DNA from: Alphaproteobacteria bacterium
GTDB lineage: Bacteria; Pseudomonadota; Alphaproteobacteria; Micropepsales; Micropepsaceae
Direction of reading: 5' to 3'
Length of the DNA stretch: 64,000 nucleotides
Assembly (NCBI GenBank): GCA_017308475.1
Contig: JAFKEU010000004.1
Span: forward strand, 186,001 to 250,000
Made by a program: the position numbers and the translations under genes
Notes under the pieces: generated by a model
Told to the model about the DNA's origin: nothing
What the model saw: only the letters and a program-made list of their open reading frames with translations
Database searches by the model: none
Shown here: positions 13,468 through 22,202 of the stretch, piece after piece
Layout: every line of letters starts with the position of its first letter
Position numbering within the stretch: position 1 is the stretch's first letter

Positions 13468-15528
13468 TTATGCCGCGCTGCGGGTCGCCACCACCTGGTC
13501 GGCCAGCTTGCCGTTCAGTTCCGACAGCCGGTCGAATTCCATCTCATAGGTACCCACCCCCTGGGTCAGCGATCGCAGGTCCACGATCAGGTCCGACACT
13601 TCGGCCAGCGGCAATTCGGCCTGGACCGTATCCCAGCCGCGCCAACCCGGCCGGGCGTCATAGCCCAGAAGCGCGCCGCGCCGGCCGCTGATCAGGGCGT
13701 TCACCCTGGAGGTGGCATCCGACGGCACATGCACCTTCACCCGCATGATGGGCTCCAGCAGCACAGGCGAACAGTTCGGCATGCCCTCGCTCATGCCCAG
13801 GCGGCCCGCCGTCTGGAAGGCGGCATCCGACGAATCCACGGTGTGATAGGAGCCGTCGACCAGTGCCACGGCGATGTCGACCACCGGAAAGCCCAGCGGG
13901 CCTTCCTTCATATAGTCGCGAACGCCGCGTTCGACCGAGCCGATCCACTGCTTGGGCACCACCCCGCCCTTGATGCGGTCCTCGAAGACGAAGCCGGACC
14001 CGCGCGGAAGGGGGCGTATCTCCAGCACCACGTCGCCGAACTGGCCATGGCCGCCGGTCTGGCGCTTGTGGCGGCCGCGCGCGGTAGTGGGTTTTCGGAT
14101 GGTCTCGCGATAGGGCACGCGCGGAGGATGGGCCTCCAGATGCAGGCCGTGGCGGCTTGCCATCCGGTCCAGGGCAACCTTGAGGTGGATTTCGCCCTGA
14201 CCGGCCAGGATCATTTCCTGCATCTCGCCATTCTGCTCGAAACGCAGAGAGGGGTCCTCCTCGCACAGCCTGGCGATCGCAGTGGTGAGCTTGACCTCGT
14301 CCTTGCGGTCCTTGACGGCGACGGCCAGGCGATGGACCGGTGTCAATATCTCGGTTGTGGCGCGACCACCACCATCCTTGGCGGTGGACAGGATCTCGCC
14401 AGTGTTGAATGCCTCCAGCCGCGCCAGCGCTACCGTGTCGCCCGCCTCGGCCGCATGGCGCTTGATCTGGCGGTCGCCGCACAGCGCGAAGATGCCACCA
14501 ATGCGCGATTCCCGCCCGCCTTCGCCATGCAGCACCGCCCCGTCCTTCAGATGGCCGGACAATACCCGCACCAGACTGAGCTTGCCGCCATGGCCGCCAT
14601 GCATGGTCTTGAGCACCACCACGGCCGGTTCGCCGGACACGCCGGCGCGTTCGGCGGCAACCGTCACGTCTGGCACGTCGTGACGCAACGCCTTGAGCAG
14701 GCGGCGCACACCATTGTCGCCTTCCGCCGAGCCGATCAGCACCGGTACCACCTGGCCTTCCGCCAGTTCGCGCCGGATATCGCCGAACACTTCGTCGCGC
14801 GAGGGTTCGACTTCGGTCAGCAGTTCCTCCATCAGGTGTTCATCATGGTCGGCCAGCTTCTCCAGCATCTCGAAGCGGGCTTCCTTTTCCCGGCGCACAT
14901 CGGCGATGTCGACCACTTCGGAGGCGGCGTGGGGTCGGTAGGCGAAGGCCCGCTCCAGCGCCAGATCGACAAAGCCGGTGGCCACGCCCTGGTCCCAAAT
15001 GGGAAGCTGGCGCAGCAGGGGGGGCCGGTCGCTGACGTCTTTCAGCACGGCCAGCAGCGCCAGAAGGGAATCGCGCGCCTTGTCGAACTTGTTGACGAAT
15101 ATCATGTGCGGGATGCCCGCATCGGACAGCCGCTTCAGGTAGGGCTGGAGCAGGACGGCCTTGGCCGGCTCGGGCTCGCAGACCACTACGGCCGCGTCGA
15201 CGCCGGGCAGAATGTTCAGCGTGTCGCCCAGGAACTCGATCGAACCGGGGCAGTCCAGGAAGGTGAACTCCTCGTCCAGCCAGCTGGTGCAGAGCGTGTT
15301 CACCTCCACGCTCATCTGGCGGGCGCGCGCTTCGGGGCTGGCGTCACCCAGCGTGTTGCCGGCGGGAACCGAGCCCTTGCGCTGAATCGTGCCGGTGATG
15401 GCGGCGATGCTTTCCAGCAATGAGGTCTTGCCGCTGCCATAGGGGCCCACAAGGGCGATGGCACGCGGCCCGGATTTTATCTTTCTGGATGTTCCTGCCT
15501 GATTGTCATTCTGGGTATTGGGGGACAT
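13468..15528 (-). CDS. Elongation factor G-like GTPase (EF-G paralogue)
   Basis: 686 residues from the ATG at 15528, which has GAGGAG a few bases upstream; an in-frame extension to 15708 lacks this. The G domain shows GPYGSGKTSLLESI (G1), DCPGSIEF (G3) and NKFDKA (G4), followed by EF-G domains II-V (YRETI ... RQTGGHGQFGDVVLEI ... RRGALLGYDARPGWRG). In true EF-G, G3 reads DTPGHVDF and its His positions the water for GTP hydrolysis; here that residue is Ser. The protein therefore belongs to the EF-G-like (EF-G2) group, whose role is less clear than translocation. No ribosomal protein or EF-Tu genes are nearby, which fits a paralogue rather than the housekeeping factor. Confidence 0.88.
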   Translation of the reverse strand: MSPNTQNDNQAGTSRKIKSGPRAIALVGPYGSGKTSLLESIAAITGTIQRKGSVPAGNTLGDASPEARARQMSVEVNTLCTSWLDEEFTFLDCPGSIEFLGDTLNILPGVDAAVVVCEPEPAKAVLLQPYLKRLSDAGIPHMIFVNKFDKARDSLLALLAVLKDVSDRPPLLRQLPIWDQGVATGFVDLALERAFAYRPHAASEVVDIADVRREKEARFEMLEKLADHDEHLMEELLTEVEPSRDEVFGDIRRELAEGQVVPVLIGSAEGDNGVRRLLKALRHDVPDVTVAAERAGVSGEPAVVVLKTMHGGHGGKLSLVRVLSGHLKDGAVLHGEGGRESRIGGIFALCGDRQIKRHAAEAGDTVALARLEAFNTGEILSTAKDGGGRATTEILTPVHRLAVAVKDRKDEVKLTTAIARLCEEDPSLRFEQNGEMQEMILAGQGEIHLKVALDRMASRHGLHLEAHPPRVPYRETIRKPTTARGRHKRQTGGHGQFGDVVLEIRPLPRGSGFVFEDRIKGGVVPKQWIGSVERGVRDYMKEGPLGFPVVDIAVALVDGSYHTVDSSDAAFQTAGRLGMSEGMPNCSPVLLEPIMRVKVHVPSDATSRVNALISGRRGALLGYDARPGWRGWDTVQAELPLAEVSDLIVDLRSLTQGVGTYEMEFDRLSELNGKLADQVVATRSAA

Positions 15529-15733
15529 GAGCGCCTCCTCGCGCGAAAACCGTTTCGGCTTTCGGGGCGCCTTTTGGGGTCCGTCCCTGGCACTGCAATA
15601 TGGGGCGGGCCGCTTTCGCGTCCCTCCAGTTCGAGGATGCTCCGACTCCCGTGCACCGAAAGCAAGGCTTTTCGGATGGCGCGCCGGCAAATGTGAGTGC
15701 CCGGCCATTCAGGCACTGATATGCAAGGATTTT

Positions 15734-17508: not shown

Positions 17509-19460
<1,952 letters not shown>

Positions 19461-20724: not shown

Positions 20725-20929
20725 GGCGGCGGGCTGGGACGGCGTGAAGCCGTGGGTGTTCGATTTCGACGGCGAGACCTTCCACAAGCCCGGCGGCATC
20801 GGGCCCAGATGGAATGGGACAGGGCGACGGGCCGGACGATGCTGGAGCTTTACATCGGCGCGCCCGGCGTTCCCGGTGACGCTGAGGCCGGTGGACTCAT
20901 TCCACGACAACCCCTGGGCGCAGGGGTAG
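20725..20929 (+). pseudogene. Frameshifted partial copy of the 19002-19460 lipoprotein gene
   Basis: The frame from 20744 gives VKPWVFDFDGETFHKPGGI, matching VKPRMFDFDGKTFRKPGGI of the intact gene, and its end (ARPAFPVTLRPVDSFHDNPW) matches the intact C-terminus. Between them about 17 residues match only in another frame (QMEWDRATGRTMLELYIG), because the copy has lost one base near 20806 and two bases near 20858 relative to the intact gene. The first two thirds of the gene, with the signal peptide, are missing. A decayed duplicate is the simplest reading. Confidence 0.8.
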
Positions 20930-20936
20930 AATAGAG

Positions 20937-21491
20937 TTATCTAGCAAAATCTATGGAAGCTTGGTGAGGCTGTCTAAAATCTTCAAGCTCCACCTTCCGA
21001 CGAATATCCGTTTGAATATCGGGATCGCAGCGATTCAATAGGGTTCCAAGGTCATCTAGCGAAGCTATCGTCACAAACTCACGCCAGGGCGCAAAATATA
21101 TAACAACTTTCTTCCCCTGCCTGACTAATTCGAATGCGTTCGCTATCGATCCAACACTCTGTCCATCCCATAACACAAATCCAAAATCAGCCAGAGCTGC
21201 CATCGCCTTATCTTTTTTTTCGTAAAACTCTCGCCCCTTAATATTAGGTTCTACATCGATTAGCTGGCTCGCCCAGCGACCAATGTTATTGCGACAATAT
21301 CCACCAGAACAAAAAACGGTCACCTTGGGATATGCGACATGAAACAGAAATGTCTGCATTGCCTTATCTGCACCATTGGCATCGCCGATTAATATCTCAA
21401 GATTATTTGAGATCATATTCTTGAGGCGGGCACGAACCTCGTCACTAAGCCTACTTATTTTTCTCGATCCAGATAAAAAGACCTTACTCAT
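20937..21491 (-). CDS. SLOG-like Rossmann protein, second gene of a low-GC pair
   Basis: 184 residues. The N-terminus KVFLSGSRKISRLSDEVRARL followed by NLEILIGDANGADKAMQTFLF has the layout of SLOG/DUF2493-type nucleotide-binding folds (strand, GSR loop, then GDxxGAD). ALADFGFVLWDGQSVGSIANAFELVRQGKKVVIYF gives the second half of the fold, with the WDGxSxGSxxN stretch as a likely ligand loop. SLOG domains bind or cut nucleotides; one in Thoeris ThsA senses a cyclic ADP-ribose signal. The start overlaps the phosphoribosyltransferase stop by four bases. Base composition is about 45% GC in two hand-counted 60-base lines, far below the surrounding genes, which suggests horizontal acquisition. The precise family is uncertain. 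Confidence 0.7.
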   Translation of the reverse strand: MSKVFLSGSRKISRLSDEVRARLKNMISNNLEILIGDANGADKAMQTFLFHVAYPKVTVFCSGGYCRNNIGRWASQLIDVEPNIKGREFYEKKDKAMAALADFGFVLWDGQSVGSIANAFELVRQGKKVVIYFAPWREFVTIASLDDLGTLLNRCDPDIQTDIRRKVELEDFRQPHQASIDFAR

Positions 21492-22063
21492 CTGACGCTC
21501 CGGGTCTTAGTCATTGTCAAAACATTGACCGAAGCTGCGCCACCTTTTTCATAAAGCAACTTTGTCGCCACACGCAGGGTCGAACCAGACCGATAGAGAT
21601 CGTCAATCAGGAGAATTTTCTTCCCTGCCGCTGCTCTTTCGTCATTTAGCTTGATGGCATCGTTCAAGCGCTCCTCCCGTTCTACGGGATCACTAATGCC
21701 TTTGAGTTCAGCGTCACCGTCATTTCCAAGGAGATCTGCCAGAACTCTCACGTCACGGCGAGCGCCGAGCTCTGCAGCAATCAACGGAACAGGTTGGATA
21801 ATGCGGCTTTTATTGGTAGGTGGAATAGGAACCAGGAGATCGAATGTCTCGACCCCCTTGATAGAGTCCAAAAGCTTTACAATGCTGGCAAGTGCCGTCC
21901 TGTCACCCCGATACTTCAGCCGATAAACAAGCTCACCCATTTCACTTCGCTCATTATCGAACCTATCGTGTCCGAACTCGTCGACACCTAAATAGGTGCT
22001 GGCAGTCGTATGAAGGTCATAGGCTAGGCCCTTCTTCCAGTTTCCCACGAGCGGATAAGTCAT
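21488..22063 (-). CDS. Phosphoribosyltransferase-like protein, first gene of a low-GC pair
   Basis: 191 residues of the type I PRTase fold. The PRPP loop is KKILLIDDLYRSGSTLRVATKLL near residue 150 (two acidic residues, then SGST), and FDLLVPIPPTNKSRIIQPVPLIAAELG around residue 75 matches the ComF-type substrate side. The first 50 residues (NWKKGLAYDLHT ... DRFDNERSEMGELVYRLKYRGD) also recall ComF proteins, which start with a short N-terminal region before the LKYxGD motif; the usual zinc-finger cysteines are absent. Codon use is AT-rich like its partner. It might make or salvage a nucleotide that the SLOG partner reads or cleaves. No obvious ribosome site precedes the ATG. Confidence 0.78.
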   Translation of the reverse strand: MTYPLVGNWKKGLAYDLHTTASTYLGVDEFGHDRFDNERSEMGELVYRLKYRGDRTALASIVKLLDSIKGVETFDLLVPIPPTNKSRIIQPVPLIAAELGARRDVRVLADLLGNDGDAELKGISDPVEREERLNDAIKLNDERAAAGKKILLIDDLYRSGSTLRVATKLLYEKGGAASVNVLTMTKTRSVR

Positions 22064-22113
22064 CTGCGTCAGCCTAAATCGATTTCAGCTCCAGCTTATC
22101 AGAATCCATCGTC

Positions 22114-22132
22114 TAACTGCATAGGACAGTTA
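22114..22132. promoter_or_regulatory. Inverted repeat upstream of the PRTase-SLOG pair
   Basis: Perfect six-base arms TAACTG (22114-22119) and CAGTTA (22127-22132), 51 bases before the PRTase start, within the AT-rich upstream region. It may be an operator; no regulator gene is part of the unit. Confidence 0.35.
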
Positions 22133-22202
22133 CTCTCAAAAGTCCGATGCAACCAGCCCTTGGCGTTGGCATTGTTCCGTCCCGGCCCGCACGCCCGAGC
22201 CG

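Follow-up and report, generated by a model that had tools for sequence, protein, structure and literature searches.

Two overlapping genes within the 64,000-nucleotide stretch of DNA analyzed here (hereafter the window) encode a phosphoribosyltransferase (PRT) and a SLOG protein, which together probably form a horizontally acquired toxin–antitoxin module related to the PRTase/DprA-like pairs ShosTA and PsyrTA/RqlHI. The existence of the two-gene PRT–SLOG unit, described in the original prediction, was confirmed (Table 1), and the interpretation given there was partly supported.

Table 1 Coordinates of the PRT–SLOG gene pair and its sequence features in the window
Feature	Position	Strand	Basis
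PRT, ComF/ShosT-like phosphoribosyltransferase, presumed toxin, 191 aa	21488..22063	-	PADLOC, AF2, VIA
SLOG, DprA/YpsA/ShosA-like Rossmann protein, presumed antitoxin, 184 aa	20937..21491	-	AF2, Foldseek, VIA, hhalign
PRPP-binding loop ILLIDDLYRSGST, PRT residues 150-162	21578..21616	-	Residue conservation, 64 relatives
SLOG conserved loop GDANGAD, residues 36-42	21366..21386	-	Residue conservation, 70 relatives
SLOG C-terminal tail QASIDF, residues 177-182, resembling a clamp-binding motif	20946..20963	-	Family tail counts
ATGA, PRT stop and SLOG start, 4-nt overlap	21488..21491	-	Sequence; shared by relatives
Low-GC segment with the pair; exact insertion ends undefined	20935..22170	.	Composition

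Composition and genomic setting of the gene pair

The PRT gene lies upstream of the SLOG gene, the two overlap by four bases as originally described, and a GGAG ribosome site precedes the SLOG ATG. The 1,127-nt unit has a GC content of 47.2%, the lowest for its length in the window, against a mean of 65.7% (sd 2.2) and a minimum of 58.7% for the remaining segments of 1,127 nt. The values for the individual genes are 43.6% (SLOG) and 50.5% (PRT), and GC3 is 0.41 and 0.52, respectively, compared with 0.85 for the adjacent gene. The earlier estimate of about 45% GC was thus close, and the foreign origin proposed from it is upheld.

The flanking genes encode EF-G-like, SPFH, GntR, aminotransferase, small lipoprotein-like, TIM-barrel, MarR, chloride channel, PQQ, and efflux proteins; nine of these ten belong to ordinary cellular families in Pfam. 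Because PADLOC returned no match for any of the ten, this copy of the pair appears to lie outside a defense island, and such a setting was rejected for it. The window contains no tRNA gene as an insertion target, no convincing flanking repeats or promoter were found around the pair, and no empty syntenic insertion site was found in relatives. The marR–ClC order is kept in relatives and the opposite flank of the pair is not, which left the boundaries of the insertion undefined.

Two further observations concern the neighborhood. Positions 20733-20929, which follow the TIM-barrel gene and directly adjoin the low-GC pair, are a decayed partial copy of the lipoprotein-like gene at 19002-19460, matching its 3′ end with 83% identity across 185 aligned bases. 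The EF-G-like gene at 13468-15708 has all EF-G domains and a divergent GTPase region, and looks like a second, EF-G-like paralogue.

Fold and family of the PRT protein

An AF2 model of the PRT (pLDDT 94) was closest to Helicobacter pylori ComF (7p0h), which gave a VIA Z score of 14.9 and was also the best Foldseek match; ShosT (8zvc, VIA Z 11.7) was among the top structural matches. The originally proposed ComF-like identity is consistent with this fold and with a match to TIGR00201 (ComF; E 7e-10), which at 39 bits is below the cutoff of 233. In PADLOC, the protein matched PsyrT (5e-13) and ShosT (2e-7), and the PsyrT match spans PRT residues 39-189, corresponding to profile positions 537-686 of 689. 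Both PADLOC profiles match all 64 members of the PRT family, which, together with the fold near ShosT, argues for the toxin–antitoxin reading. The PRPP-binding loop is intact, as Asp155 and Gly160 are present in 100% and Asp154 in 98% of the 64 relatives, and the protein has no N-terminal CxxC zinc motif.

Fold, conserved loops, and domain fusions of the SLOG protein

The AF2 model of the SLOG protein (pLDDT 92) bore out the earlier assignment to a SLOG-like Rossmann fold. Foldseek matched it to DprA (4ljk, 7e-5) and ShosA (8zva, 1e-4), and the VIA Z scores were 14.0 for YpsA, 12.8 for DprA, and 12.2 for ShosA; LOG proteins also matched, and the SLOG domain of ThsA ranked lower. A profile of the SLOG family aligned to ShosA with an E value of 2e-5 in hhalign; for PsyrA, hhalign gave a probability of 4%. 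The window SLOG itself had no PADLOC match, including the ShosA and PsyrA models, and nothing was found in a sequence-profile search of the PDB. It exceeded none of the curated cutoffs of Pfam or NCBIfam; its scores against DprA were 12.7 bits in Pfam (cutoff 29.6) and 12.3 bits in NCBIfam (cutoff 191). Pairs of this kind may therefore escape annotation. Among 70 relatives, 37 matched DprA, nine ShosA, and eight PsyrA models, the PsyrA matches being weak. These family matches and the structural proximity to ShosA and DprA support the toxin–antitoxin reading.

Gly36, Asp37, Ala38, Gly40, and Asp42 of the GDANGAD loop are invariant in the 70 relatives, as are Arg67, Asp94, Trp108, Ser112/Gly114, and Asn118; these residues therefore likely mark a ligand pocket. 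An HI1420-type antidote domain (dnstrm_HI1420) is present at the C-terminus of seven relatives (best 6e-25), others carry a C-terminal HTH_37 or YhfG, and several are annotated as "addiction module antidote protein"; no such domain is present in the window SLOG. The fusions to antidote or HTH domains are a further argument for a toxin–antitoxin module. The same SLOG core thus occurs with differing C-terminal DNA-binding or antidote domains (e.g., L014, L016, and L049, A3 members), which suggests repeated domain swaps in the antitoxin.

Distribution and co-inheritance of the pair

We found at least 413 SLOG relatives in genome contigs (80 kept), 25 in viral contigs (IMG/VR), and 98 in plasmid records, 55 of them typed conjugative; INPHARED phage records gave no match. 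An intact PRT gene lies directly upstream of the SLOG gene in 93 of 121 fetched loci, 52 of which have the same ATGA overlap of 4 nt, and because this order recurs, the pairing is more than chance. In the host's family, the pair is present in 3 of 96 genomes. Across 398 phylum genomes (PRT family threshold E<1e-15), the PRT and SLOG families were found in an identical set, the window's own genome plus six others. Fainter PRT matches in further phylum genomes are ComF-like, and the five examined all lack SLOG. Distances between PRTs and between SLOGs were correlated over 55 pairs (Mantel r 0.78, permutation maximum 0.13). The pair is a co-inherited mobile unit with a sporadic distribution that is common on plasmids, and this co-inheritance is in line with a toxin–antitoxin module.

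On plasmids, relatives neighbor repA, ParDE, ParA, ParAB/RepC, CBASS genes, and RM genes, and the proximity to repA, parA, and ParDE also points to a toxin–antitoxin function. The neighbors of 31 chromosomal relatives, for which there was no control set, were mixed and included a few restriction–modification genes. Plasmid relatives are often found next to replication, partition, toxin–antitoxin, CBASS, or RM genes.

At ten loci (L020, L022, L055, L061, L067, L074, L077, L079, L099, and L109), the PRT gene is frameshifted, stopped, or a remnant beside an open SLOG gene, although SLOG-anchored searches favor intact SLOGs and some single PRT frameshifts in draft assemblies may be assembly errors. 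SLOG was open in 21 of 21 viral loci anchored on the PRT. Decay of the PRT beside an intact SLOG is what leads us to assign the toxin–antitoxin reading some of its weight. SLOG orphans without a PRT number about a dozen. Three of them (L008, L012, and L213), on Sphingobium, Mesorhizobium, and Methylobacterium plasmids, also lack a Gln-containing tail and are possible anti-addiction genes. At L035 (4705-5502), a deletion apparently joins the N-terminal half of the PRT in frame to SLOG. One sequence of the plasmid collection that carries the pair, a 2.17-Mb Neisseria gonorrhoeae record (L010, NZ_CP119142.1), is probably a chromosome.

Comparison with known PRTase/DprA-like modules

The original prediction gave no named two-gene system of this form, but ShosTA and PsyrTA/RqlHI are both named pairs of a PRTase and a DprA-like protein. 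ShosTA resembles the window pair in being an overlapping pair of a stand-alone PRTase and a DprA-fold protein, and both of its proteins rank among the top PDB matches. By contrast, ShosA lies upstream of ShosT in L150, the single ShosTA locus inspected, which is the opposite of the window order; the window SLOG lacks the N-terminal DprA region, and sequence similarity is low. PsyrTA/RqlHI consists of a RecQ-like helicase–PRTase toxin and a DprA-like antitoxin; the window PRT matches the PRTase domain of PsyrT, and the toxin-then-antitoxin order is common to both. The window PRT differs in having no helicase fused to its N-terminus and in its canonical PRPP loop (DDLYRSGST, compared with DDMVDSRWT in PsyrT), and the window SLOG is much shorter than PsyrA.

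In the proposed toxin–antitoxin module, the upstream PRT would be the toxin, which, by analogy with ShosT, may use or misuse PRPP and thereby disturb the purine nucleotide pool, with DNA or replication damage and growth arrest as the presumed outcome. ShosT has been described as a PRTase/pyrophosphatase whose action unbalances purine pools and is accompanied by DNA damage (PMC12593503). The SLOG protein, translationally coupled to the PRT, would be the antitoxin restraining it, by direct binding and/or by DNA-linked functions such as those proposed for ShosA. The former would be comparable to RqlI, which binds and counters RqlH; the toxicity of RqlH requires its PRTase domain and is abolished by mutation of the PRPP pocket (PMC4670107). 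On plasmids, the module would serve as an addiction element, and for the cell it may act by aborting infections by phages; in E. coli, a DprA–PRTase pair confers protection from both T7 and lambda (PMC9122126). Against the toxin–antitoxin reading stand the missing ShosA or PsyrA match of the window SLOG, the SLOG orphans, and the finding that the isolated PRTase domain of RqlH is not toxic (PMC4670107).

A C-terminal tail resembling the sliding-clamp-binding motif

The SLOG family shares a C-terminal tail, Qxx[LM][FL] or Qxx[LIMF]x[FL], which mostly ends 0-2 residues from the C-terminus. This motif, noticed post hoc, occurs in 57 of 87 SLOG representatives (<80% identity), compared with a mean of 6.3 (maximum 15) in shuffled sequences and two for the reversed pattern. 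Within the last 12 residues, it was found in 38 of 56 short SLOGs but in one of 117 neighboring proteins and none of 64 PRTs. The tail of the window SLOG is disordered after the core (model pLDDT 53-61), and in HTH-fused SLOGs the motif sits at the linker between the core and the HTH. Of 15 plasmid copies that were fetched for annotation and had no part in finding the motif, 8 carry it and 4 come close to it; the other three have no such tail and are orphans with no PRT.

The bacterial clamp-binding motif is Q-phi-x-[LM][FL] or Q-phi-x-[LM]x[FL] (PMC13254535), exemplified by QLSLPL, QADMF, and QTSMAF (PMC12309361). The SLOG family tail resembles this sliding-clamp (DnaN) binding motif, a similarity for which we found no earlier report. 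We regard it as quite possible, though somewhat short of probable, that this tail anchors the SLOG antitoxin to the beta sliding clamp, with the toxin kept inactive at the replisome or released when the replisome changes. Besides the enrichment over shuffled sequences and neighboring proteins, the coexistence at one site of five-residue (QLKLF, QAELF, and QMSLL) and six-residue (QGTLPL and QGSLNF) forms, as in known clamp motifs, favors this possibility. So does the pattern in the held-out plasmid copies, where paired SLOGs have strict or near tails and the three orphans none. Five of eight PsyrA proteins examined likewise have such tails (QLSLL, QKHLF, QKGLF, QKRLL, or QGTLGF). By contrast, PsyrA of an E. 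coli plasmid, of L199, and of Sinorhizobium (KRKRLFE, no Gln) and the one ShosA examined lack the motif, the strict consensus with an aliphatic residue at position 2 fits only 11 of 56 SLOGs, and the window tail QASIDF is a loose match with Ile at position 4. The known toxins SocB (PMC9690074) and RipA (PMC12795458) attack the clamp; we found no literature report of a clamp-binding antitoxin, and the one paper that deals with both a clamp-binding motif and an antitoxin concerns SocB, a toxin.

Disordered C-terminal tails that neutralize the toxin are common in antitoxins. The main rival to clamp docking is that the SLOG C-terminus inserts into the PRT and neutralizes it, the likeness to the clamp motif being coincidental, which we consider a fair possibility, though short of probable. 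The absence of the tail from the three plasmid orphans that have no PRT would fit such a role. Other orphans (L021, L025, L028, L089, and L094) retain the tail, and the alternation of five and six residues specifically suits the clamp pocket.

Alternative functions of the pair

The nucleotide-signal circuit of the original prediction, in which the SLOG protein senses or cleaves a nucleotide product of the PRT in the manner of Thoeris-like signaling, is improbable. SLOG folds bind nucleotides, and the high conservation of the GDANGAD, RNN, and S-x-G loops suggests a bound ligand. However, neither protein has an effector domain (SIR2, nuclease, or membrane), and on this ground the reading was rejected. 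Thoeris ThsA is a SIR2–SLOG fusion with a TIR partner, and neither SIR2 nor TIR is found in the window pair; moreover, the SLOG of ThsA is a lower-ranking structural match, and the toxin–antitoxin relatives, the antidote or HTH fusions of SLOG proteins, and the decay pattern fit a toxin–antitoxin module better. What stands of the earlier proposal is the link to phage or plasmid conflict. That the two are simply salvage or competence genes, a ComF with a DprA-like partner, is very unlikely despite the sequence similarity to both, and this identity was rejected: the genome has its own ComF-like (C2:125365) and DprA-like (C15:30382) genes elsewhere, the PRT shares the ComFC fold without its zinc-binding N-terminus and is not competence-linked, and the patchy, plasmid-borne distribution is not one of conserved vertical inheritance.

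Biological implications

As a probable toxin–antitoxin module, the pair extends the PRTase/DprA-like group by a compact branch carried on plasmids and prophages. The clamp-like tail bears on how such antitoxins connect to replication; if it is real, it would link the antitoxin to replication, and it might explain the DNA damage seen in relatives when the antitoxin is missing. We tentatively propose a widespread mobile class of PRTase toxin–antitoxin modules in which the SLOG antitoxin may be docked on the clamp by its tail and control of the toxin thereby coupled to the replisome. If this is true, clamp docking would let the module sense plasmid loss, fork collapse, or takeover of the clamp by a phage.
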